From Fusobacterium perfoetens ATCC 29250 (GTDB lineage: Bacteria; Fusobacteriota; Fusobacteriia; Fusobacteriales; Fusobacteriaceae), in contig NZ_JHXW01000011.1 in assembly GCF_000622245.1 (NCBI RefSeq), positions 1 through 64,000 on the forward strand: DNA of 64,000 nucleotides. Reading direction: 5' to 3'. Of this stretch, positions 4,183 through 64,000 are shown in pieces. The notes beneath the pieces were generated by a model, which ran no database searches, had not been told where the DNA came from, and saw only the letters and a program-made list of their open reading frames with translations. Position 1 is the first letter of the stretch. The number at the start of each line of letters is the position of its first letter. Both the position numbers and the translations under genes were made by a program.

Positions 4183-5540
4183 GAAAGTATTTTGGAACTG
4201 ATGGAATGAGAGGGGAAGCCAATAGAGAATTAACAGCTGACAAGGCTATGAGACTTGGTTATGCTTTAGGATATTACTTAAAAAAAGAAAACCCTGAAAA
4301 GAAAAAATTAAAAGTTATAATGGGGTCTGATACAAGAATATCAGGATATATGTTAAGGTCAGCTTTAACAGCTGGATTAAACTCAATGGGAATTAATATA
4401 GACTTTGTTGGAGTTATCCCAACTCCTGGAGTAGCTTATATCACTCAAATAAAAGAGGCTGAAGCTGGAATAATGATATCAGCTTCTCACAACCCAGCCA
4501 AAGATAATGGAATTAAAATTTTTGGAAAAGATGGTTGTAAATTACCAGATGTTGTAGAAGAAGAATTAGAAAGTTATATGGATAATTTAGAAGAAATTAT
4601 AAAAAATCCAATAGCTGGAGATGAATTAGGAAAATTTAAATATGCTCAAGATGATTATTTCCTATATAGAGACCATTTAAAATCAATAGTAAGTGGAGAT
4701 TTTTCTGGAATGAAAATTATATTAGATGCAGCTAATGGTTCAGCTTATAGGGCAGCTAAAGATGTATTTTTATCTTTAGGAGCTGAAATTGTAGTAATAA
4801 ATGACGCCCCTAATGGAAAAAATATTAATGTAAAATGTGGTTCTACTCACCCAGAAATTTTATCAAAAGTAGTAGTAGGTTATGAAGCTGATTTAGGTTT
4901 GGCTTATGATGGAGATGCTGATAGATTAATAGCTGTTGATAGAAATGGAAATATAGTAGACGGAGATAAAGTTATAGCTACTTTGGCTGTAGAGATGAAA
5001 AAGAAAAACTTATTAAATGATAATAGAGTTGTAACAACAGTTATGAGTAATATGGGGCTAGAAGCTTATCTAAATAAAAATGGAATAGTTTTAGTAAGAG
5101 CCAATGTAGGAGATAGATATGTTCTTGAAAAAATGAAGTTACAAGGATTAAATCTAGGTGGAGAACAATCAGGACATATTATAATGCTTGATTATGGAAC
5201 TACAGGAGATGGAATTCAAACTTCATTAAAACTTGTTGAAACTCTAAGAGATGCTGGAAAATCTTTAGATGAAATAGTAAAAGATATAAAAGATTGGCCT
5301 CAAACATTAATCAATGTAAGAGTTGGAGATAATAGTAAGAAAAATTCTTGGAATGAAAATAAGAAAATAAAAGATGTTATTAGTGAAAAAGAAGTTGAAA
5401 TGGGAGATAAAGGAAGAATCTTAGTAAGAACTTCTGGTACTGAACCTATTGTAAGAGTTATGGTAGAAGGTAAAGAAAAAGAAATGGTAGAAAGAATAGC
5501 TAGTGAAATAGCTGATGTAGTTAAAAATGAATTGGCATAG
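4179..5540 (+). CDS. glmM: Phosphoglucosamine mutase
   Basis: The enzyme converts glucosamine-6-phosphate to glucosamine-1-phosphate for UDP-GlcNAc, and so for peptidoglycan and lipopolysaccharide. The 453-residue protein has the full alpha-D-phosphohexomutase set: FGTDGMRG at 5-12, SASHNP at 101-106 with the phosphorylated Ser103, the Mg-binding loop DGDADR at 244-249, the sugar loop GGEQSGH at 327-333, and the C-terminal phosphate loop RTSGTEPIVRVM. The start overlaps the preceding stop as ATGA. It is the last gene of the lepB operon. About 220 bases with no recognised gene follow. Confidence 0.97.
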   Translation: MRKYFGTDGMRGEANRELTADKAMRLGYALGYYLKKENPEKKKLKVIMGSDTRISGYMLRSALTAGLNSMGINIDFVGVIPTPGVAYITQIKEAEAGIMISASHNPAKDNGIKIFGKDGCKLPDVVEEELESYMDNLEEIIKNPIAGDELGKFKYAQDDYFLYRDHLKSIVSGDFSGMKIILDAANGSAYRAAKDVFLSLGAEIVVINDAPNGKNINVKCGSTHPEILSKVVVGYEADLGLAYDGDADRLIAVDRNGNIVDGDKVIATLAVEMKKKNLLNDNRVVTTVMSNMGLEAYLNKNGIVLVRANVGDRYVLEKMKLQGLNLGGEQSGHIIMLDYGTTGDGIQTSLKLVETLRDAGKSLDEIVKDIKDWPQTLINVRVGDNSKKNSWNENKKIKDVISEKEVEMGDKGRILVRTSGTEPIVRVMVEGKEKEMVERIASEIADVVKNELA

Positions 5541-5762
5541 TAAAGATAAGATTTATCTAAAAATATAGGATAATATAAAAACTTTTGAATTACAAAAAAT
5601 ACAAGTTGAAAGCGTATTTTCTTTAAAATTTATATATTTTATTTATTTAAGAAAGTTTCTTGTATTGTTTACAAAATTACCTAATTTTATAAATTACAGA
5701 TATATTTAAATTGATTAAAAACTTAATAATAAAATAAATTATTATATATGTGGGAGAATTTT

Positions 5763-53334: not shown

Positions 53335-56145
53335 ATGATGACAGAAGCAGAATTAGAAAAAAATTTAATAGATGACTTGATTGGGTTAGGATATGAGAGA
53401 ACTAATATAAAAGATGAAGAGGGATTAATTTCTAATTTAAAATCACAGTTAGAAAAGTTTAATAATATAAAGCTTAGTCAAAATGAATTTAAAAAAATAC
53501 TTATTCATCTATCTGGAGATAGTATATTTGAGAAAGCTAAAAAATTAAGAGATAGATTTGAACTTCCTACAGATAAAGGAGAGATTAAATATATATCTTT
53601 TCTTGATAGTAAAAATGTAGAAAATAATCTTTTTCAAGTAGCTAATCAAATCACAATGAAAGGACAATATGAAAATAGATATGATGTAACTATTCTTGTA
53701 AATGGACTTCCATTGGTACAGATAGAACTTAAGAAAAAAACAATCCAATTAAAAAAAGCTTTTTATCAAATACAAAGATATCAAAGACATTCATATTCAT
53801 ATAAAACTCTTTTTCAATATATTCAAATTTTTGTAATCAGTAATGAGGAAAATACAAGATATTTTTCTAATAATAAAGAGTTAAAATATGAATTTACTTT
53901 CCCTTGGGCTGATGAGTATAACCTAAAGAAAAATAGATTAACTGATTTTACAAAAACTTTCTTAGATAAAAAACATCTTGGAAATATGCTTACTAAATAT
54001 ATAGTTACTAATGAAACTCAAAAAGCTCTTATGATATTAAGACCATACCAATATTATGCTGTTGAAAAAATAATAGACAGGGTAAAAACTTCTCCAGGTA
54101 TGAATGGATATATTTGGCATACTACAGGAAGTGGAAAAACTCTGACATCATTTAAGGCTAGTCAAATAATATCTACTCTTGATGAAGTAGAAAAAGTTGT
54201 TTTTTGTGTAGATAGAAAAGACTTAGACTATCAAACATCAAAGGAATTTAACGCCTTTGCTCCAGGTTCAATAAGTCGTGTAGAAGATACAGACGAATTT
54301 GTAAAAAATATGTTAAATGGAACTAATAAAGTGGTGGTAACTACCATTCAAAAGTTAAATAATGCCATTAGTAAACCATATTATCTAAAAAGAATGGAGA
54401 AAATAAAAGATAAAAGACTTGTATTTATTTTTGATGAATGTCATAGAACACAGTTTGGAGAAACTCATTCAAGAATTGATAACTTTTTTACTAATAAACA
54501 ATTTTTCGGATTTACAGGAACACCAATATTTTCAGAAAATGCTGTAAAGTATAAAACAACTGCTGATTTATTTGGGCAAAGACTTCATACTTATACAATA
54601 AAAGAAGCTATAGATGATGAAAATGTATTAGGTTTTTCAGTAGAGTATTACTCTACTTTTAATTTAAAAGATGAAAATGGAGATGATTTATCTCCTGATG
54701 AGATGATAGAAAATGGAATTGACACAAAAGAGGTATTTTCAAAAAGAGAAAGACTTGAAAATATAGTTGATTTTATAATTAAAAATCATAATGCTAAAAC
54801 TTCTCATGGAGAATATCAAAGTATATTTGCTATAAGTGATATAAATACTTTAATTGAATATTACAATATTTTTAAAGAAAAAAATACAAATTTAAGAATA
54901 GCAAGTATTTTTACCTATGAAGCCAATGTAGATTTAGCTAATGACGAGGGAACTTTTGAGGTAGAGGGAGATGAGTGTAAACACCCAAGAGAACACCTTG
55001 ATAGAATGGTAGCTGACTACAATAAAATGTTTGGAGATAATTTTAATCTTAATGCTGAAAATGGTTTCAATAGTTATTTCATAGATATTTCAAAAAAATT
55101 AAAAGAGAGAAAAATAGATATACTACTTGTAGTAAATATGTTTTTAACAGGTTTTGACAGTAAATATCTAAATACTTTGTATGTAGATAAAAATTTGAAA
55201 TATCATGGACTTATACAAGCATATTCAAGAACTAATAGAATTTTAAATGTAAATAAACCTCATGGAAATATTGTATGTTTTAGAAATCTAAAGAAAAGAA
55301 CAGATGAGGCTATAAGATTATTCTCTGATGAGAGTGCTTGTGAAACTGTGCTTATGAAAAGTTATGGGGAATATGTAGAGATTTTTAATGACTATTTAAA
55401 AACTTTAAGAGCTTTGGCTGAAAATTCACAAGAGGTAGATAACTTAGAAACAGAGGAAAATAAACTATCATTTATTGAAACATTTAAAAATCTTTTAAGG
55501 GTAATGAATAAATTAACAAGCTTTTCAACTTTCTCATATGATGATTTGAATATTTCACAAGATGATTTTGAATCATATAAAAGTAAATATATAGATATGT
55601 ATGATACTTTGGTAGGGCAAGGAACAAAAAATAATGGAGATAAAACTTCTATTATAGATGAGATTGATTTTGAAATTGAATTACTAGCTAAAGATAATAT
55701 AAATGTAAGCTATATTATATCTTTGCTTAAAAATCTTGATAGTAAGGAAGCTACATTTGTAAAAGATGTAGAATATATTTTAAAAACTATTGATAGTGTT
55801 CCGAGCTTAAAAAATAAAAGGGAATTACTAGAGAGATTTATAGAAGAAAATAGAGAAATATTCACAATAGAATCAAAAGAAGATGTAGAAGATAAATTAT
55901 CTGAATATATGCAAGAACAAAAGAAAAAAGCTATTGAAGAATTAATAACAGAGGAAGAATTAAAGGCTGATAAAGTAAATAATATAATAGAAAAATGTGA
56001 GTTTACAGAGAAAAAGCCAGAAGTGGCAGATATAAAAGAATCTTTTGTAACAAGACCAAGTATTTTAAAATTAAATAAAAGAATTGAAGATATACAACAC
56101 AAAATAGAAAGTATTATAGAAAAGTTTAATTTCTTTAATATGTAG
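53335..56145 (+). CDS. hsdR: Type I restriction enzyme R subunit
   Basis: This 936-residue ATP-dependent translocase and nuclease cuts unmodified DNA with HsdM and HsdS. The nuclease core is Asp117 in YDVTI and Glu131-Leu-Lys133 in QIELKKK (PD-(D/E)xK). The motor has Walker A HTTGSGKT at 262-269 and DECHRTQFGE at 367-376, followed by FTGTP and QAYSRTNRI. The C-terminal part is helical. The type resembles EcoR124. An additional mrr-like and a GIY-YIG gene lie between it and hsdM. Confidence 0.96.
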   Translation: MMTEAELEKNLIDDLIGLGYERTNIKDEEGLISNLKSQLEKFNNIKLSQNEFKKILIHLSGDSIFEKAKKLRDRFELPTDKGEIKYISFLDSKNVENNLFQVANQITMKGQYENRYDVTILVNGLPLVQIELKKKTIQLKKAFYQIQRYQRHSYSYKTLFQYIQIFVISNEENTRYFSNNKELKYEFTFPWADEYNLKKNRLTDFTKTFLDKKHLGNMLTKYIVTNETQKALMILRPYQYYAVEKIIDRVKTSPGMNGYIWHTTGSGKTLTSFKASQIISTLDEVEKVVFCVDRKDLDYQTSKEFNAFAPGSISRVEDTDEFVKNMLNGTNKVVVTTIQKLNNAISKPYYLKRMEKIKDKRLVFIFDECHRTQFGETHSRIDNFFTNKQFFGFTGTPIFSENAVKYKTTADLFGQRLHTYTIKEAIDDENVLGFSVEYYSTFNLKDENGDDLSPDEMIENGIDTKEVFSKRERLENIVDFIIKNHNAKTSHGEYQSIFAISDINTLIEYYNIFKEKNTNLRIASIFTYEANVDLANDEGTFEVEGDECKHPREHLDRMVADYNKMFGDNFNLNAENGFNSYFIDISKKLKERKIDILLVVNMFLTGFDSKYLNTLYVDKNLKYHGLIQAYSRTNRILNVNKPHGNIVCFRNLKKRTDEAIRLFSDESACETVLMKSYGEYVEIFNDYLKTLRALAENSQEVDNLETEENKLSFIETFKNLLRVMNKLTSFSTFSYDDLNISQDDFESYKSKYIDMYDTLVGQGTKNNGDKTSIIDEIDFEIELLAKDNINVSYIISLLKNLDSKEATFVKDVEYILKTIDSVPSLKNKRELLERFIEENREIFTIESKEDVEDKLSEYMQEQKKKAIEELITEEELKADKVNNIIEKCEFTEKKPEVADIKESFVTRPSILKLNKRIEDIQHKIESIIEKFNFFNM

Positions 56146-56157
56146 GGAGTGAATAAA

Positions 56158-57075
56158 ATGATACCAAAATATAATGAAATGTATAGAGAGATTTTAGAAG
56201 TATTAAAGAATGGGGAAGCTTATCCTTTTAAAGAAGTAAAAGAGCTTGTTGCTGAAATATTAAGTCTTTCGGAAGAGGAAAGAAATGAAAGACTGGAAAG
56301 TGGAAAGAAAAAATATGATGATAGAATAAGTTGGGGTTGCACTTATTTAAAAAGGGCTGGGTTAGTAGAAAATACTAAAAGAGGAGTTGTAAGAATAACT
56401 AATAAAGGTTTAGAGTTATTAGAAAGTAATCCTGAAAAAATAGATAATAATTTATTATCTACCTATAAAGAGTTTACTAATTTTTTAAAAAGAAATAAAA
56501 AAGATGAGATACAAAATATAAAAGAAAAAATAGAAGAAAAAAATCAAACACCTCAAGATGTATTAGAAGAATCCTTTAAAGAAATAAATAAAATATTAGA
56601 AGAAGAAATTTTAGAGGAAGTATTAAGACAAAGCCCAGAATTTTTTGAATATCTTGTTGTAAAATTATTGCAAAAAATAGGATATGGAAGTTTAATATCT
56701 GAATCAGGGATAGTAACAAAAAAAAGTAATGATGAAGGAATAGATGGAATTATAAAACAAGATAAATTAGGTTTTGATTCTATATATATTCAAGCTAAAA
56801 AATGGGATAGAGAAACTACTGTAAGTAGACCAGAAATACAAAAATTTGTAGGAGCTTTGGGAGGAAAAGGAGCAAGTAAAGGACTTTTTATAACAACAGC
56901 TAAATTTTCAGATGGAGCTATGAAATATTCAAAAGAACAACATATAGCAAAAGTTGTCCTTATAGATGGAAGAAAGTTAGCAAAATTGATGATTGAATAT
57001 AATGTAGGTGTTTCAGTAGAAAGTACTTATGAAATAAAAAGAATTGATAGTGATTTTTTTGAAAATATAGATTAA
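56158..57075 (+). CDS. Mrr-like restriction endonuclease
   Basis: This 305-residue protein has an N-terminal Mrr winged-helix domain (about 1-95, WGCTYLKRAGLVE, RGVVRIT) and a C-terminal Mrr catalytic domain with Asp196 in DEGIDGII and Gln212-x-Lys214 in IQAKKW. Mrr enzymes cut modified or foreign DNA. It is 12 bases from hsdR. I start at ATG 56158, preceded by GGGAG, rather than at the GTG at 56149 that lies inside that site. A linker at about 110-150 is rich in Lys and Glu. Confidence 0.9.
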   Translation: MIPKYNEMYREILEVLKNGEAYPFKEVKELVAEILSLSEEERNERLESGKKKYDDRISWGCTYLKRAGLVENTKRGVVRITNKGLELLESNPEKIDNNLLSTYKEFTNFLKRNKKDEIQNIKEKIEEKNQTPQDVLEESFKEINKILEEEILEEVLRQSPEFFEYLVVKLLQKIGYGSLISESGIVTKKSNDEGIDGIIKQDKLGFDSIYIQAKKWDRETTVSRPEIQKFVGALGGKGASKGLFITTAKFSDGAMKYSKEQHIAKVVLIDGRKLAKLMIEYNVGVSVESTYEIKRIDSDFFENID

Positions 57076-57094
57076 GATAAAAAAAGGAAATATT

Positions 57095-57910
57095 ATGAAA
57101 ATACAGCAAATATTTAATGAATTAACAGATTTGAATGATATGAATTATAGATTTCATTTAGCAAAACCAGCAAGTGAAAGACCCTCAGATGTATTAGCTC
57201 GTTCAAGAGAAGATTGGCTAGGGTGGCAGATATATAAAGAAAGAGAAAATGGAGAGAGATTTCCTTATCCTGTGAAATATATTTTTAGTTTTGCACAATT
57301 ATCAGGAAATGAATTTATTTTTGGTGGAATATTCGAGATTTTAGATAGAAGTGGAAAAGAATATAAGGTTAAATATGTAGATAAATATCAAGATTTAATA
57401 GGAAGAGTTGTATTAACATATACTGGAAAAAATAAAAGAGGAACTGTTTTCAGACCTAGTCATATCTTGGAAAATTCAGAAATAATTGAAATTTATAAAA
57501 GTGCATATAAAGGAGAAAAATTTCCTGGTATAGAAAATATAAATCATACTTATAAACAACTAAGAATAGTTTATGATAATAAACTAGAGGATTGGAAAAA
57601 TATACTTAGTAATATAAAAGGAATTTATCTTTTGACAGATACTAAAACAGGAAAACATTATGTAGGTTCTGCTAAAGGTGTGGATAGTATATATGGAAGA
57701 TGGAGTAATTATATTTATGGATTTGATGGTGGGAATAAAGAATTAATAAAATTGAGAAAAGAAGAAGGGGAAGAATATTTTAAAGAAAACTTTAAATTTT
57801 CGATTTTAGAAGTTTTTGGAATGAGTTTTGAAGATAAAAATATAGAAGCAAAAGAAAGTCTATGGAAAGAAAAATTAATGAGTAGACAGTTTGGATATAA
57901 TTCAAACTAG
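57095..57910 (+). CDS. GIY-YIG nuclease-domain protein with unknown N-terminal domain
   Basis: This 271-residue protein has a C-terminal GIY-YIG domain (about 172-271): GIY at 176-178, YVG at 189-191, Arg202, a Glu near 251-254 and Asn269, the usual catalytic set. I do not recognise the N-terminal domain (1-165), which contains RSREDWLGWQIYKER and FGGIFEIL; it may read DNA or modified bases, but that is speculation. It sits between mrr-like and hsdM, so it is likely a defence or accessory nuclease. The start follows AAAAGG. Confidence 0.8.
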   Translation: MKIQQIFNELTDLNDMNYRFHLAKPASERPSDVLARSREDWLGWQIYKERENGERFPYPVKYIFSFAQLSGNEFIFGGIFEILDRSGKEYKVKYVDKYQDLIGRVVLTYTGKNKRGTVFRPSHILENSEIIEIYKSAYKGEKFPGIENINHTYKQLRIVYDNKLEDWKNILSNIKGIYLLTDTKTGKHYVGSAKGVDSIYGRWSNYIYGFDGGNKELIKLRKEEGEEYFKENFKFSILEVFGMSFEDKNIEAKESLWKEKLMSRQFGYNSN

Positions 57911-57938
57911 AGATTTAAAATTGTGGAGGAAATAAATA

Positions 57939-59480
57939 ATGTCAGAACATCAAGCAGAATTAGAAAAAAGACTATGGGCAATAGCCAATGAGCTTAGGGG
58001 AAATATGGGAGCTGATGAATTTAAAAACTATATACTAGGTTTAATATTCTTTAAGTTCCTATCTGAAAAAATAGAGAAAACAGGAAACGATATATTATCA
58101 GAAGATAATATGAAATTTGAAGATATAGAGGGAAAAGATGAATATATTGAAGCAGTAAAAGAGTATTGTATCAATAGTATTGGTTATTTTATAGAGCCTA
58201 AATATCTTTTTGGAAATTTAGCTAGTAGAGCAAAGAATGGAGAATTTATCATAGAAGATTTGGGGCTAGCTTTGAAATATATAGAAGATTCTACAAATGG
58301 ACAAGCTAGTAATGACGATTTTTCAGGACTATTTGGAGATGTAGATTTAACATCTTTAAAACTTGGAAAAACTTCTAACGATAAAAATAAAATGATTTCC
58401 GAAGTAATAAAACATTTACAAGATATTAATTTTAATTTTGATGATACAGAAATGGACGTTTTAGGAAATGCCTATGAATATTTAATAGGTCAATTTGCTA
58501 GTAATGCTGGTAAAAAGGCTGGAGAATTCTATACACCAGCACAAGCTTCAAAACTTTTGGCAAAATTAACAACAGTTGGAAAAGATAGAATAAAATCAGT
58601 TTATGACCCTACTTGTGGTTCTGGTTCTCTATTATTAAAAGTAGCTTCTCAAGTAGAAGTATCAAATATCTATGGGCAAGAGTTAAATACTACAACTTAT
58701 AACTTAGCTCGTATGAATATGATATTACATGGAGTAAAATTTAATGATTTTGAGATTAGACAAGGGGACACATTGGAGAATCCACAACATTTAGACAAAA
58801 GATTTGATATAGTTGTGGCTAACCCTCCATTCTCTCAAAAATGGAGTGCTGATGATAGTTTTCTATCTGATGAAAGATTTGCTTCTTATGGAAAATTAGC
58901 TCCTAGTAGTAAGGCTGATTTTGCTTTTATTCAACATATGGTTTATCATTTAGATGATGAGGGAACAATGGCTGTAATAGTTCCTCACGGAGTATTATTT
59001 AGAGGAGCAAGTGAGGGAGTTATAAGAAAATATTTATTAAAAGAGAAAAATTATATTGACGCAATAATTGGACTACCTGCTAATATTTTCTATGGAACAA
59101 GTATTCCTACTTGTGTAATTGTAGTTAAGAAAAATAGAAAAAATGATGATGATATATTATTTATAGATGGTTCAAATGATTTTGAAAAATCTAAAAATCA
59201 AAACTATTTGAGAGATGAAGATGTAGAAAAGATTGCTAATACTTACAAAAATAGAGAGGAAATAGAAAAATATTCTAAAAGAGTAAGTATGAAAGAGATT
59301 GAAGAAAATGATTATAACTTAAATATTCCAAGATATGTAGATACTTTTGAGGAAGAGGAAGAAATAAATCTTGAAGAAGTAGTAGAGAAAATAACAAAGA
59401 TAGATGAGGAAATGAAAGAAGTAGATGAAACTATCAAAAACTTCTGTAATGAGCTTGGAATAAAAGCTCCTGTAATGTAG
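57939..59480 (+). CDS. hsdM: Type I restriction enzyme M subunit
   Basis: This 513-residue N6-adenine methyltransferase has the N-terminal HsdM domain (about 5-170), SAM motif DPTCGSGSLLLK at 223-234 and catalytic NPPF at 295-298. It modifies the site chosen by HsdS to protect host DNA. GGAGG precedes ATG. It is followed after 8 bases by the DUF1016 remnant and then hsdS. Confidence 0.96.
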   Translation: MSEHQAELEKRLWAIANELRGNMGADEFKNYILGLIFFKFLSEKIEKTGNDILSEDNMKFEDIEGKDEYIEAVKEYCINSIGYFIEPKYLFGNLASRAKNGEFIIEDLGLALKYIEDSTNGQASNDDFSGLFGDVDLTSLKLGKTSNDKNKMISEVIKHLQDINFNFDDTEMDVLGNAYEYLIGQFASNAGKKAGEFYTPAQASKLLAKLTTVGKDRIKSVYDPTCGSGSLLLKVASQVEVSNIYGQELNTTTYNLARMNMILHGVKFNDFEIRQGDTLENPQHLDKRFDIVVANPPFSQKWSADDSFLSDERFASYGKLAPSSKADFAFIQHMVYHLDDEGTMAVIVPHGVLFRGASEGVIRKYLLKEKNYIDAIIGLPANIFYGTSIPTCVIVVKKNRKNDDDILFIDGSNDFEKSKNQNYLRDEDVEKIANTYKNREEIEKYSKRVSMKEIEENDYNLNIPRYVDTFEEEEEINLEEVVEKITKIDEEMKEVDETIKNFCNELGIKAPVM

Positions 59481-59488
59481 GTGAGAAT

Positions 59489-60016
59489 ATGGAAATTGAG
59501 AGAAGAGATATTTTTACAGATATTAAAAATATTATTGACTTATCTTATCAAAAAGCGCAGACAGTGTCTGCGGAATTTAAACTTTCATATTCTCATTATC
59601 TTACTCTTATGAGAATAACAAATATAGAGGAAAGAAATTTCTATGAAATAGAGGCAATAAATAATAATTGGAGTTTAAGAGAATTAAAAAGACAAATTGA
59701 TTCTGCTTTGTATGAAAGATTAGTTTTGAGTAGAGATAAGGAAAAAGTTATTGAATTATCTAAAAAGGGGCAATTAATAGAAAAGCCTCAAGATATTAGA
59801 CAGATACAAATGTATGTAAATTACTATGATAGACATGTAAAACTTGATGATGAAAATAAAACAATAGGAATTATAATATGTAAAGATAAAAATGATACTC
59901 TTGTAAATATGACACTTCCAGAGGGAAATGAACAAATATTTGCTAGTAGATATATGACAATCTTACCTAGTAAAGAAGAATTGAAAAAGATAGTAGAAAG
60001 TGAGGTAAGAGAATGA
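59489..60016 (+). CDS. DUF1016 (YhcG-type) protein with internal deletion of the nuclease core
   Basis: This 175-residue open frame carries the start and end of a DUF1016 protein. The N-terminal part has LSYSHYLTLMRI, FYEIEAINNNWSLRELKRQI and LYERL, and the C-terminal part has QIQMYVNYYDRHV, TIGIIICKDK and IFASRYMTILP. Family members are about 340 residues. The centre, which holds the PD-(D/E)xK catalytic core, is missing; the two halves join near residue 95 without a frameshift. It overlaps hsdS by 4 bases. Family assignment is from memory of the motifs. It is probably not a nuclease any more. Confidence 0.75.
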   Translation: MEIERRDIFTDIKNIIDLSYQKAQTVSAEFKLSYSHYLTLMRITNIEERNFYEIEAINNNWSLRELKRQIDSALYERLVLSRDKEKVIELSKKGQLIEKPQDIRQIQMYVNYYDRHVKLDDENKTIGIIICKDKNDTLVNMTLPEGNEQIFASRYMTILPSKEELKKIVESEVRE

Positions 60017-61236
60017 AAAAAGTACCAAAGTTAAGATTTAAAGAGTTTAGTGATGAATGGGAAGAAATAAAAGAGGATATAAAAATTTTATCTGGTAACG
60101 CTTATCCATTAGAAAGTTATAATTCAGAAGGAATTTTATTAGTCCAAGGCTTGAATATTTATCCAGGAAAATTAATAATAGAAAATCCTATATATATAGC
60201 AAAAAATTTCAATAATTTTAAACATATTAATATTAAAAATGGAGATATTTTACTTGGGTTAAATAGACCTATTATTAATAATGAGTTAAAAGTTTGTTTA
60301 TTTGAGAATGATAAAGCGTACTTATATCAAAGAGCAGGAATACTACATTTTAATAAAAATAATATAAATTCTAAATTTATTTATCAATATTTAAGAAGTG
60401 AAAGTTTTAAAAGAAAATTAGAAAAAGAATTAGTAGGGTCGGACCAACCTTATATAAAATCTGATTTGTTTAAAATTATAAAAATTTATTCAGGAAAATA
60501 TTTCGAACAAGAAAAAATAGCTAACTTTCTTTCTAGTATAGATAAAAAAATTTCTTTAACAGAAGAAAAATTAGAATTATTTAGAGAATACAAAAAGGGA
60601 GTTATGCAAAAGATTTTCTCTCAAGAATTAAGATTTAAAGATAATGAGGGAAATGATTATCCAAAGTGGGAAGAAAAGAGATTAAATGAATTAGTTGTTA
60701 AATTAACAAATGGGATAAGTTTAAATCAAAATTTAGAAAAGAAAGGATATAGAGTAACAAGAATAGAAACTATTTCAATGGGGAAAATAGATATAAATAA
60801 AATAGGATTTGTTTTAACTGATAAAAATTTAGATGAATATAAATTAAATATAGGAGATTTATTATTTAGTAATATTAATAGTGTAGAACACATAGGAAAA
60901 ATAGCTTATGTAGATAAAGATTATAATTTATATCATGGAATGAATTTGTTGAGAATAGTTTTTAAAGAACAATATAATTCAAAATATTTTTATTATATTT
61001 TAATAACTAATAAATATAAAAAGATATTTGAAAAATTATGTAATAAAGCAGTAAGTCAAGCTAGTATAAACCAAACTGAATTAGGAAAAATTAAGGTAAA
61101 ATTTCCTATTTTAGAAGAACAAAGAAAAATAGCAAATTTCCTATCATCTATTGATGAAAAAATAGAGAAAATTGAAAATGAACTTGAAAATTTAAAAGAA
61201 TTTAAAAAAGGATTATTACAACAGATGTTTGTATAA
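60013..61236 (+). CDS. hsdS: Type I restriction enzyme S (specificity) subunit
   Basis: This 407-residue protein sets the DNA target of the R-M complex. It has two target recognition domains (about 15-160 and 215-365), each followed by a conserved helix: KIANFLSSIDKKISLTEEKL near 168 and KIANFLSSIDEKIEKIENEL near 372. The N-terminus PKLRFKEFSDEWEEIK is typical. Its ATG overlaps the preceding stop. It is the last R-M gene; an inverted repeat follows 14 bases later. Confidence 0.94.
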   Translation: MKKVPKLRFKEFSDEWEEIKEDIKILSGNAYPLESYNSEGILLVQGLNIYPGKLIIENPIYIAKNFNNFKHINIKNGDILLGLNRPIINNELKVCLFENDKAYLYQRAGILHFNKNNINSKFIYQYLRSESFKRKLEKELVGSDQPYIKSDLFKIIKIYSGKYFEQEKIANFLSSIDKKISLTEEKLELFREYKKGVMQKIFSQELRFKDNEGNDYPKWEEKRLNELVVKLTNGISLNQNLEKKGYRVTRIETISMGKIDINKIGFVLTDKNLDEYKLNIGDLLFSNINSVEHIGKIAYVDKDYNLYHGMNLLRIVFKEQYNSKYFYYILITNKYKKIFEKLCNKAVSQASINQTELGKIKVKFPILEEQRKIANFLSSIDEKIEKIENELENLKEFKKGLLQQMFV

Positions 61237-61250
61237 ATTATATAATAAAT

Positions 61251-61292
61251 TTGTCGGTATAAGATAAAGTAAAAATATCTTATTACCGACAA
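61251..61292. repeat. Inverted repeat after hsdS
   Basis: TTGTCGGTATAAGATA and TATCTTATTACCGACAA pair almost perfectly (one extra base) around a 9-base loop. No T run follows on either strand, so it is not a typical terminator. It may act as a bidirectional terminator, an mRNA end or a recombination mark. Confidence 0.65.
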
Positions 61293-61424
61293 TGGTAAAA
61301 TACCTTATATTTCAATAAAAAAGAAATAATAAAGAATAATTTTATAAAAAATATTTAAAATTTATAGAATTCGACAAAAATACATTATAAATCTTTCTAA
61401 AATAATAATATTTTAAAGTTATAA
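61293..61424 (+). promoter_or_regulatory. AT-rich leader of the CRISPR array
   Basis: About 130 bases of AT-rich DNA precede the first repeat. This is the leader end, since the degenerate repeat is at the other end. TCGACA near 61374 and TATAAA near 61387 are present but too close for a good promoter, so I name no exact promoter. Confidence 0.55.
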
Positions 61425-61916
61425 GACTAAAACCAAGTAAATTGGTATTTAAACTTTAATCATATCTGATACCCCTTTCTTTATTTTCTGACTAAAACCA
61501 AGTAAATTGGTATTTAAACTTTTCTAAAAATATGTATCTCATATAAATACACTCAGACTAAAACCAAGAAAATTGGTATTTAAACAAACATTAATCTATC
61601 TAAAATGCTTTTTCTCTCTTCGACTAAAACCAAGTAAATTGGTATTTAAACTATTATATATTTTGTGTACATAAAAATTTATTTTCTGACTAAAACCAAG
61701 TAAATTGGTATTTAAACTAAGATTAAAAGCCATAGCAACAGGCATATTCTCTCGACTAAAACCAAGTAAATTGGTATTTAAACAATCTTAATTTATCCCC
61801 TACTTTTAAATCATTTACATGACTAAAACCAAGTAAATTGGTATTTAAACTTATGATTTTTATATCAATATTATCTGTATTTATTGGACTAAAACCAAGT
61901 AAATTAATATTTATTA
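61425..61916 (+). CRISPR. Type VI-C CRISPR array, 8 repeats and 7 spacers
   Basis: Eight 30-bp repeats start with GACTAAAACC and end with GGTATTTAAAC. They are at 61425, 61490, 61556, 61622, 61688, 61754, 61821 and 61887. Spacers are 35, 36, 36, 36, 36, 37 and 36 bases. Repeats 1, 2 and 4-7 are identical. Repeat 3 has one T-to-A change in the hairpin loop. Repeat 8 is degenerate and marks the leader-distal end. Each repeat can fold with stem ACCAA/TTGGT around GTAAA. The array is read rightward, towards cas13c, judging by the degenerate last repeat, the downstream terminator and spacer composition. Confidence 0.97.
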
Positions 61917-61947
61917 AAAACTAGTTATCTAAATAACTAGTTTTTTT
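61917..61947 (+). terminator. Terminator between the CRISPR array and cas13c
   Basis: AACTAGTTAT and ATAACTAGTT pair perfectly around CTAA and end in T7. It sits directly after the last, degenerate repeat, so it should stop the pre-crRNA before cas13c. Confidence 0.9.
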
Positions 61948-61948
61948 C

Positions 61949-61977
61949 TTGTTTATGTTATAAAAATAAGCTAGAAT
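61949..61977 (+). promoter_or_regulatory. Possible promoter of cas13c
   Basis: TTGTTT (61949-61954) and TAGAAT (61972-61977) are 17 bases apart, directly after the terminator. The start would be only about 10 bases before the ATG, leaving little room beyond the GAGGTG site, so the call is tentative. Confidence 0.45.
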
Positions 61978-61994
61978 AATATAGAGGTGATAAA

Positions 61995-64000
61995 ATGGGA
62001 AAACCAAATAGAAGTTCAATAATAAAAATTATAATTTCTAATTATGATAACAAAGGAATAAAAGAAGTAAAAGTAAGATACAATAAACAAGCTCAATTAG
62101 ATACTTTTTTAATTAAAAGTGAATTGAAAGATGGAAAGTTTATTTTATATTCAATAGTAGATAAAGCAAGAGAAAAATATAGATATAGTTTTGAAATAGA
62201 TAAAACTAATATTAATAAAAATGAAATACTAATTATAAAAAAAGATATATATTCTAATAAAGAAGATAAAGTTATAAGAAAATATATTCTTTCTTTTGAA
62301 GTATCTGAAAAAAATGATAGAACAATAGTAACCAAAATAAAAGATTGTTTAGAAACTCAAAAGAAAGAAAAATTTGAAAGAGAAAATACAAGAAGATTAA
62401 TCTCTGAAACAGAAAGAAAGTTATTGAGTGAAGAAACACAAAAAACATACTCTAAAATAGCTTGTTGTTCTCCAGAAGATATAGATTCTGTAAAGATTTA
62501 TAAAATAAAAAGATATTTGGCTTATCGTTCAAATATGCTTTTATTTTTTTCTTTGATAAATGATATATTTGTTAAAGGAGTAGTAAAAGATAATGGAGAA
62601 GAAGTAGGAGAAATTTGGAGAATAATTGACTCTAAAGAAATAGATGAAAAGAAAACTTATGATTTACTTGTTGAAAACTTTAAAAAAAGAATGAGTCAAG
62701 AGTTTATAAATTATAAGCAAAGTATAGAAAATAAAATAGAAAAAAATACAAATAAAATAAAAGAGATTGAGCAAAAATTAAAAAAAGAAAAATATAAAAA
62801 AGAAATAAACAGGTTAAAAAAACAATTAATTGAATTAAATAGAGAAAATGATTTATTAGAAAAGGATAAAATTGAATTATCTGATGAAGAAATAAGAGAA
62901 GATATTGAAAAAATATTAAAAATTTATTCTGACTTAAGACATAAATTAATGCACTATAATTATCAATATTTTGAAAATCTTTTTGAGAATAAAAAAATTT
63001 CTAAAGAAAAAAATGAAGATGTAAATTTAACTGAATTGTTAGACTTGAATTTATTTAGATATTTACCTTTAGTAAGACAGTTGAAATTAGAAAATAAAAC
63101 GAATTATTTAGAGAAAGAAGATAAAATTACTGTATTAGGAGTTTCTGATTCTGCTATAAAATACTATAGCTATTATAATTTTTTATGTGAGCAAAAAAAT
63201 GGGTTTAATAATTTTATAAATAGCTTTTTTTCAAATGATGGAGAAGAAAATAAGAGTTTTAAAGAAAAAATAAATTTATCATTAGAAAAAGAAATAGAAA
63301 TAATGGAAAAAGAAACCAATGAAAAGATAAAAGAAATTAATAAAAACGAACTCCAATTAATGAAAGAACAAAAAGAGTTAGGAACAGCTTATGTACTAGA
63401 TATTCATAGTCTTAATGATTATAAAATTTCGCACAATGAAAGAAATAAGAATGTAAAATTGCAAAATGATATTATGAATGGAAATAGAGATAAAAATGCT
63501 TTAGATAAAATAAATAAAAAATTAGTAGAATTAAAAATAAAAATGGATAAAATAACAAAGAGAAATTCCATTCTTAGATTAAAATATAAATTACAAGTAG
63601 CTTATGGATTTTTGATGGAAGAATATAAAGGAAATATAAAAAAATTCAAAGATGAATTTGATATTTCTAAAGAAAAAATAAAGAGTTATAAATCAAAGGG
63701 AGAAAAATATTTAGAGGTTAAGAGTGAGAAAAAATATATAACTAAAATATTAAATTCAATAGAAGATATACATAATATAACTTGGCTTAAAAATCAAGAA
63801 GAAAATAATCTTTTTAAGTTTTATGTTTTAACATATATTCTTTTACCTTTTGAATTTAGAGGAGATTTTTTAGGTTTTGTAAAGAAACATTATTATGATA
63901 TAAAAAATGTTGAGTTTTTAGATGAAAATAATGACAGGTTAACACCTGAACAATTAGAGAAAATGAAAAATGATAGTTTCTTTAATAAAATAAGACTTTT
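61995..64000 (+). CDS. cas13c: Cas13c, type VI-C CRISPR RNA-guided ribonuclease (N-terminal 668 residues, runs off the window)
   Basis: The frame is open from ATG 61995 to the window end: 668 residues, compared with about 1,100 for the family. AGAGGTG precedes the start. The first HEPN nuclease motif (R-x4-H) is RHKLMH, Arg315 to His320, in the pattern DLRHKLMHYNY. The second HEPN motif should lie beyond the window. Coiled-coil-like charged helices occur at about 245-300 and 430-460. From memory the N-terminus (MGKPNRSSIIKIII) matches the Cas13c of Fusobacterium perfoetens. The protein should bind crRNA from the adjacent array and cut single-stranded RNA. No cas1, cas2 or accessory csx gene is visible upstream. 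Confidence 0.95.
   Translation, partial: MGKPNRSSIIKIIISNYDNKGIKEVKVRYNKQAQLDTFLIKSELKDGKFILYSIVDKAREKYRYSFEIDKTNINKNEILIIKKDIYSNKEDKVIRKYILSFEVSEKNDRTIVTKIKDCLETQKKEKFERENTRRLISETERKLLSEETQKTYSKIACCSPEDIDSVKIYKIKRYLAYRSNMLLFFSLINDIFVKGVVKDNGEEVGEIWRIIDSKEIDEKKTYDLLVENFKKRMSQEFINYKQSIENKIEKNTNKIKEIEQKLKKEKYKKEINRLKKQLIELNRENDLLEKDKIELSDEEIREDIEKILKIYSDLRHKLMHYNYQYFENLFENKKISKEKNEDVNLTELLDLNLFRYLPLVRQLKLENKTNYLEKEDKITVLGVSDSAIKYYSYYNFLCEQKNGFNNFINSFFSNDGEENKSFKEKINLSLEKEIEIMEKETNEKIKEINKNELQLMKEQKELGTAYVLDIHSLNDYKISHNERNKNVKLQNDIMNGNRDKNALDKINKKLVELKIKMDKITKRNSILRLKYKLQVAYGFLMEEYKGNIKKFKDEFDISKEKIKSYKSKGEKYLEVKSEKKYITKILNSIEDIHNITWLKNQEENNLFKFYVLTYILLPFEFRGDFLGFVKKHYYDIKNVEFLDENNDRLTPEQLEKMKNDSFFNKIRL

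Follow-up and report, generated by a model that had tools for sequence, protein, structure and literature searches.

The locus analysed here is closest to the described subtype VI-C systems, such as that of FpeCas13c of Fusobacterium perfoetens (PMC7670108), with which it shares the effector family, the two HEPN motifs, a Fusobacteriota host, the short array beside the gene and the lack of adaptation genes. How type VI arrays gain spacers without cas1 and cas2 has been explained for a minority of subtypes at most. In Flavobacterium columnare, a VI-B array is fed in trans by the Cas1 protein of a type II-C system, a claim that is based on shared acquisition motifs and on deletion of cas1 (PMC8092290). 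The VI-C locus resembles this VI-B system in that it is predicted to target RNA, lacks cas1 and cas2 and, as proposed here, has its array extended by the Cas1 of another CRISPR type. However, the VI-B and II-C leaders of F. columnare have no more than poly(A)/poly(T) tracts in common, whereas the VI-C and I-B leaders compared below share sequence boxes at fixed distances. The two also differ in their spacers, since the newly acquired VI-B spacers of F. columnare carry no mRNA bias, in contrast to its natural ones (PMC8092290) and to the standing VI-C spacers described below. In type I-A (PMC9456107) and, as related for the work of Kieper et al. in PMC10212523, in type I-D, spacer uptake is influenced by leader motifs that lie some way off the junction and may serve as an anchor for the adaptation complex or for a host factor. 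The VI-C leader motifs are comparable in this respect, but differ in sequence and host and in that a single layout is common to two CRISPR types.

A standard subtype VI-C locus beside a defence island

The window, i.e., the whole 64,000-nucleotide stretch of F. perfoetens ATCC 29250 DNA that was analysed, carries on its forward strand a VI-C CRISPR array (61425..61916) of eight 30-nt repeats and seven spacers of 35-37 nt. The repeat, GACTAAAACCAAGTAAATTGGTATTTAAAC, starts at positions 61425, 61490, 61556 (with one mismatch), 61622, 61688, 61754, 61821 and 61887, and has no further copy within three mismatches elsewhere in the genome. It forms a short stem-loop and has a repeat-guide layout, and the array adjoins cas13c. 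The eight-repeat array of the earlier note thus consists of seven good repeats and a degenerate terminal one (61887..61916, forward strand), in which five mismatches disrupt both the 3' handle and the 3' arm of the stem, where TTGGT has become TTAAT. Since this degenerate repeat is at the cas13c side, the leader is located upstream and the old end of the array beside cas13c. The changes would prevent the formation of a useless last crRNA, as expected of a repeat-guide system. Between array and cas13c, a perfect 13-bp hairpin followed by a T-run (61916..61952, forward strand; arms 61916-61928 and 61933-61945) is likely a Rho-independent terminator, which the GC-based terminator scan did not report because its stem is A+T-rich.

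The cas13c open reading frame starts at 61995 on the forward strand and is still open at the end of the window (61995..64000, the first 668 of 1121 codons). In the contig it closes at position 65360, giving a protein of 1121 amino acids. This protein matches the NCBIfam VI_Cas13c model (NF038193) with 1083.7 bits over the whole profile (cut-off 150) and the PADLOC Cas13c model with 1359.5 bits, while no other Cas13 model of NCBIfam, those of Cas13a, Cas13b and Cas13d included, matches it even at E<=10. It contains exactly two R-x4-6-H motifs, RHKLMH at residues 315-320 (62937..62954, forward strand) and RNKICH at residues 816-821, the latter beyond the end of the window. The R and H of both motifs are invariant in an alignment with relatives of 34-47% identity. 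The earlier note, which had only the first 668 residues with R315-HKLM-H320 and an N-terminal resemblance to Fusobacterium Cas13c, and which considered that a stop soon after 64000 might leave the protein without a second HEPN motif, was therefore right about the family and about the effector being already known. The named relatives come from the plasmid collection only; none was found in scans of general genome contigs and viral contigs, nor in the PDB by sequence profile. One of the plasmids, NZ_CP092523 of Cetobacterium somerae (40,685 bases), has cas13c split into two ORFs (L054 11310-14925), followed by a nucleotidyltransferase/HepT-like pair. In all, the locus is a standard subtype VI-C CRISPR-Cas locus without adaptation genes, whose Cas13c protein would be expected to cleave RNA, and what is new about it is the leader and its link to type I-B.

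Both flanks of the locus contain further genes. Upstream, the earlier note had seen only a restriction-modification operon. The type I system is indeed present, but the region from 53335 to 61236 (forward strand) encodes hsdR, an Mrr-like endonuclease, a GIY-YIG protein (a PADLOC UzuA match), hsdM, a DUF1016/YhcG-like protein (PADLOC PDC-S02, 175/175 aa, 400 bits) and hsdS, and is thus a composite defence island in which Mrr-type, GIY-YIG and DUF1016/YhcG-like genes are interspersed in the operon. Directly 3' of cas13c, an ORF of about 30 codons (contig about 65460-65570; L002 about 5460-5570) has a strong ribosome site (AAGGAGG), a hydrophobic start and a hairpin-T terminator. Its product looks like a small membrane peptide and is perhaps a type I toxin. 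Rfam contains no family for the region, this ORF included.

The seven spacers gave only chance-level matches against phages and plasmids (best E 0.3, unrelated hosts), and for spacer 5 the viral contigs contained neither an exact nor a back-translated match, and 61 genomes of the family no match elsewhere at three mismatches. Judged by codon-likeness rather than by matched protospacers, an antisense orientation to coding-like sequence is seen in 26 of the 28 VI-C spacers, including all seven of this genome, versus 60 of 95 I-B spacers (Fisher p=0.002). This bias fits crRNAs selected to meet mRNA. Because in F. columnare the bias occurs only in natural VI-B spacers, selection after acquisition is its likely cause.

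The VI-C leader and its counterpart in type I-B arrays

The leader, oriented by the degenerate terminal repeat, extends from hsdS to the first repeat (61237..61424, forward strand). It contains a 40-nt imperfect palindrome, TGTCG-N30-CGACA (61252..61291, forward strand; about 173 nt before the first repeat), which is the sole TGTC-N32-GACA match in the window, and a third box, TCGACA (61371..61376, forward strand), whose CGACA begins at -53 relative to the first repeat. Of 98 species genomes of Fusobacteriota, five contain cas13c: this one (G000), G006, G009, G028 and G033. All six VI-C leaders recovered from them have TGTC-N32-GACA about 175 nt before the first repeat and a third box, (T)CGACA, at about -53. 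In the five leaders first available, the 40-nt element starts 172-176 nt before the first repeat and the third box, in the form (C/A)GA(C/T)A, occurs at -53 or -54, distances measured in the other leaders with the conserved 29-nt repeat core. No other 4mer-gap-4mer is common to all VI-C leaders at a fixed position, and none of 200 shuffles produced any that all leaders share. When used as a pattern on the 98 genomes, the three boxes gave matches in each of the five genomes with cas13c and in only two others, which belong to another family and in which the matches precede I-B-type repeats. The pattern also revealed the VI-C array of G006, where array and cas13c are on separate contigs. G028 has VI-C arrays on both sides of cas13c, each with its own three-box leader (L020 6893-11372), and a lone VI-C-like repeat elsewhere (L120 3047). 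A description of the VI-C leader was not found in a literature search of incomplete coverage.

RNA structures were also considered. As an RNA hairpin, the 40-nt element has fold energies of -15.7 to -4.4 kcal/mol and its inner pairs are not kept, so that a DNA site fits better. A leader-repeat hairpin of the VI-B type (PMC13187072) is not expected in a repeat-guide system, and the repeat stem persists in five folded leaders.

In 19 genomes, which belong to several families, the same TGTCG-N30-CGACA element, in 39 distinct versions, precedes arrays whose repeats are of I-B type and about 30 nt long. In these leaders the third box is at -53 in 23 cases and, with one exception, within 3 nt of this position in the rest, the small shifts being due to chance extension of the repeat. 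In three I-B-type leaders no third box was detected around this position. The two neighbouring gene sets that were typed both encode Cas1b, Cas2, Cas4, Cas3 and Cas7/Cst2, and the remaining element-linked arrays are called I-B-type from their repeats alone. With groups of Cas1b score that were set after the scores were seen, an array-linked element is present in 15 of the 22 genomes whose best Cas1b match reaches at least 427 bits, in none of the nine with a Cas1b at 306-406 bits and in four of the 67 without a Cas1b above the cut-off. The association with the high-scoring group (15/22 versus 4/76 genomes) has a Fisher p of 2.6e-9, related genomes not being independent. Fusobacteriota I-B arrays thus resemble the VI-C array in their leader boxes, repeat length (29-30 nt in VI-C) and 36-37-nt spacers, and differ from it in repeat sequence, in effector and in the presence of a promoter -10 after the third box. 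The arrays beside the Cas1b of G028 (L053 1000-11275), a protein of the lower-scoring group with an in-frame TAG in its gene, have another kind of leader, marked by CCAAG/CTTGG boxes. This leader may represent a second address, corresponding to the second Cas1b group.

Proposed spacer acquisition in trans and its alternatives

The reading favoured here, to which a probability of about 0.7 may be given, is that the VI-C locus produces RNA-targeting crRNAs and that its spacers are most likely added in trans by a type I-B Cas1b-Cas2-Cas4 module that recognises the leader layout. The earlier note had already supposed acquisition in trans; the leader anatomy sharpens this by pointing to a Cas1b module. 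In the proposed pathway, the array would be transcribed from the leader toward cas13c, and each repeat hairpin with its spacer would yield a repeat-guide crRNA that is processed and bound by Cas13c. Through its two HEPN motifs, Cas13c would then cleave the matching RNA, for the most part phage mRNA in sense orientation. The I-B module would insert new VI-C spacers upon recognition of the 40-nt element and the -53 box, the boxes being docked either by the adaptation complex or by a host factor that works with it.

A transcription-control site, in which the three boxes would be an operator or promoter part of I-B and VI-C arrays unrelated to adaptation, is an unlikely alternative that nonetheless survives better than the others. 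Palindromic boxes are typical of operators, regulator binding at the boxes is possible, and in 31 of 37 I-B leaders the third box (TCGACA) serves as a -35 that is followed ~17 nt on by a TATAAT-like -10. However, a -10 after the third box is missing from all six VI-C leaders (0/6 versus 31/37, p=1.5e-4). Because these leaders keep the box and its distance nevertheless, promoter use is not the only reason for its retention, and this speaks for a role at the site of integration. Moreover, the spacing is fixed relative to the repeat, which is the site of integration, and the element tracks a Cas1b group.

Further evidence for the I-B module comes from the cas13c genomes that also keep element-bearing I-B arrays, G033 and G006, on which two the host matching rests and in both of which a matching I-B Cas1b module is present. 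When their VI-C elements are compared with the 39 I-B elements of the 19 genomes, the nearest is that of the own genome (37/40 identical positions in G033 and 31/40 in G006), whereas at most 27/40 are shared with other VI-C elements. In contrast, the stretch between element and third box and the last 48 nt of the leader show about shuffle-level similarity between VI-C and own I-B leader, whereas the similarity of these regions between two I-B leaders of G033 is 76-86%. It is therefore the boxes, and not the whole leader, that VI-C and I-B have in common. In G033, an orphan I-B-type array directly follows the VI-C array, each with a 40-nt element (L019 11039-13540; 35/40 identical).

It is quite improbable that the VI-C array is instead fed by the resident type III-A Cas1-Cas2. 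The search of this genome (2.10 Mb, 99.97% complete) for cas1 and cas2 found none at the VI-C locus and a single cas1, on another contig in a III-A locus, where it is adjoined by two short cas2-like ORFs (assigned by position and length), Csm1 and arrays. In favour of this Cas1 is that it is the only one of a nearly complete genome; the III-A leader also has one CGACA, at -56, and the III-A spacers have the same antisense bias (43/46). Against this, the III-A leader of this genome lacks the 40-nt element, the III-A repeats are 37 nt long and unrelated in sequence to the VI-C repeat, and the cas13c genomes G006 and G033 have matching I-B modules instead. The resident protein is not a Cas1b, because it scores only 100.5 bits with the I-B Cas1b model, for which the cut-off is 304. 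The III-A locus itself (L011 6715-14160) contains two arrays with leaders that are 91% similar across 254 nt, and part of the stretch between the arrays reads N.

Least probable of all is that VI-C leaders descend from I-B leaders through a one-time capture of an array by the effector, with the boxes as inherited relics: the layout is common to several genera and an I-B array adjoins the VI-C array in G033, and a common origin is possible, yet a relic would neither persist, as the boxes do in leaders that are otherwise randomised when VI-C is compared with I-B or VI-C loci with one another, nor track the host, as the G033 and G006 elements do in following the I-B version of their own genome rather than other VI-C elements.

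Probably frozen and possibly learning VI-C arrays

If spacers are added by a type I-B Cas1b module, the state of a VI-C array depends on the genome in which it resides. Three of the five cas13c genomes have no matching Cas1b: this one, with the III-A Cas1 only, G009, with no Cas1, and G028, with a Cas1b of the other group that has an in-frame TAG. Since the matching Cas1b is absent from this genome, its VI-C array is probably a frozen memory, and the genome may either have lost an I-B module or have received a finished VI-C locus. The number of spacers (seven here, two in G009 and five over two arrays in G028) is low in these three, which would be expected of frozen arrays, but is no evidence for freezing, because G006, with a matching Cas1b, also has only five.

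By naming both a candidate partner, the I-B Cas1b-Cas2-Cas4 module, and the exact DNA boxes, the leader layout predicts that strains with a matching Cas1b are learners and that this genome is a non-learner. The three-box pattern is at the same time a search tool for VI-C arrays that are detached from their effector, as in G006. On a broader view, to which we would give about even odds, there is one leader address in Fusobacteriota that is read by a group of Cas1b proteins, and any array bearing it is extended, whatever the effector. If this is true, VI-C would be a mobile accessory; it would acquire memory only in genomes with an I-B module of the same address and would freeze in others, as in this genome.
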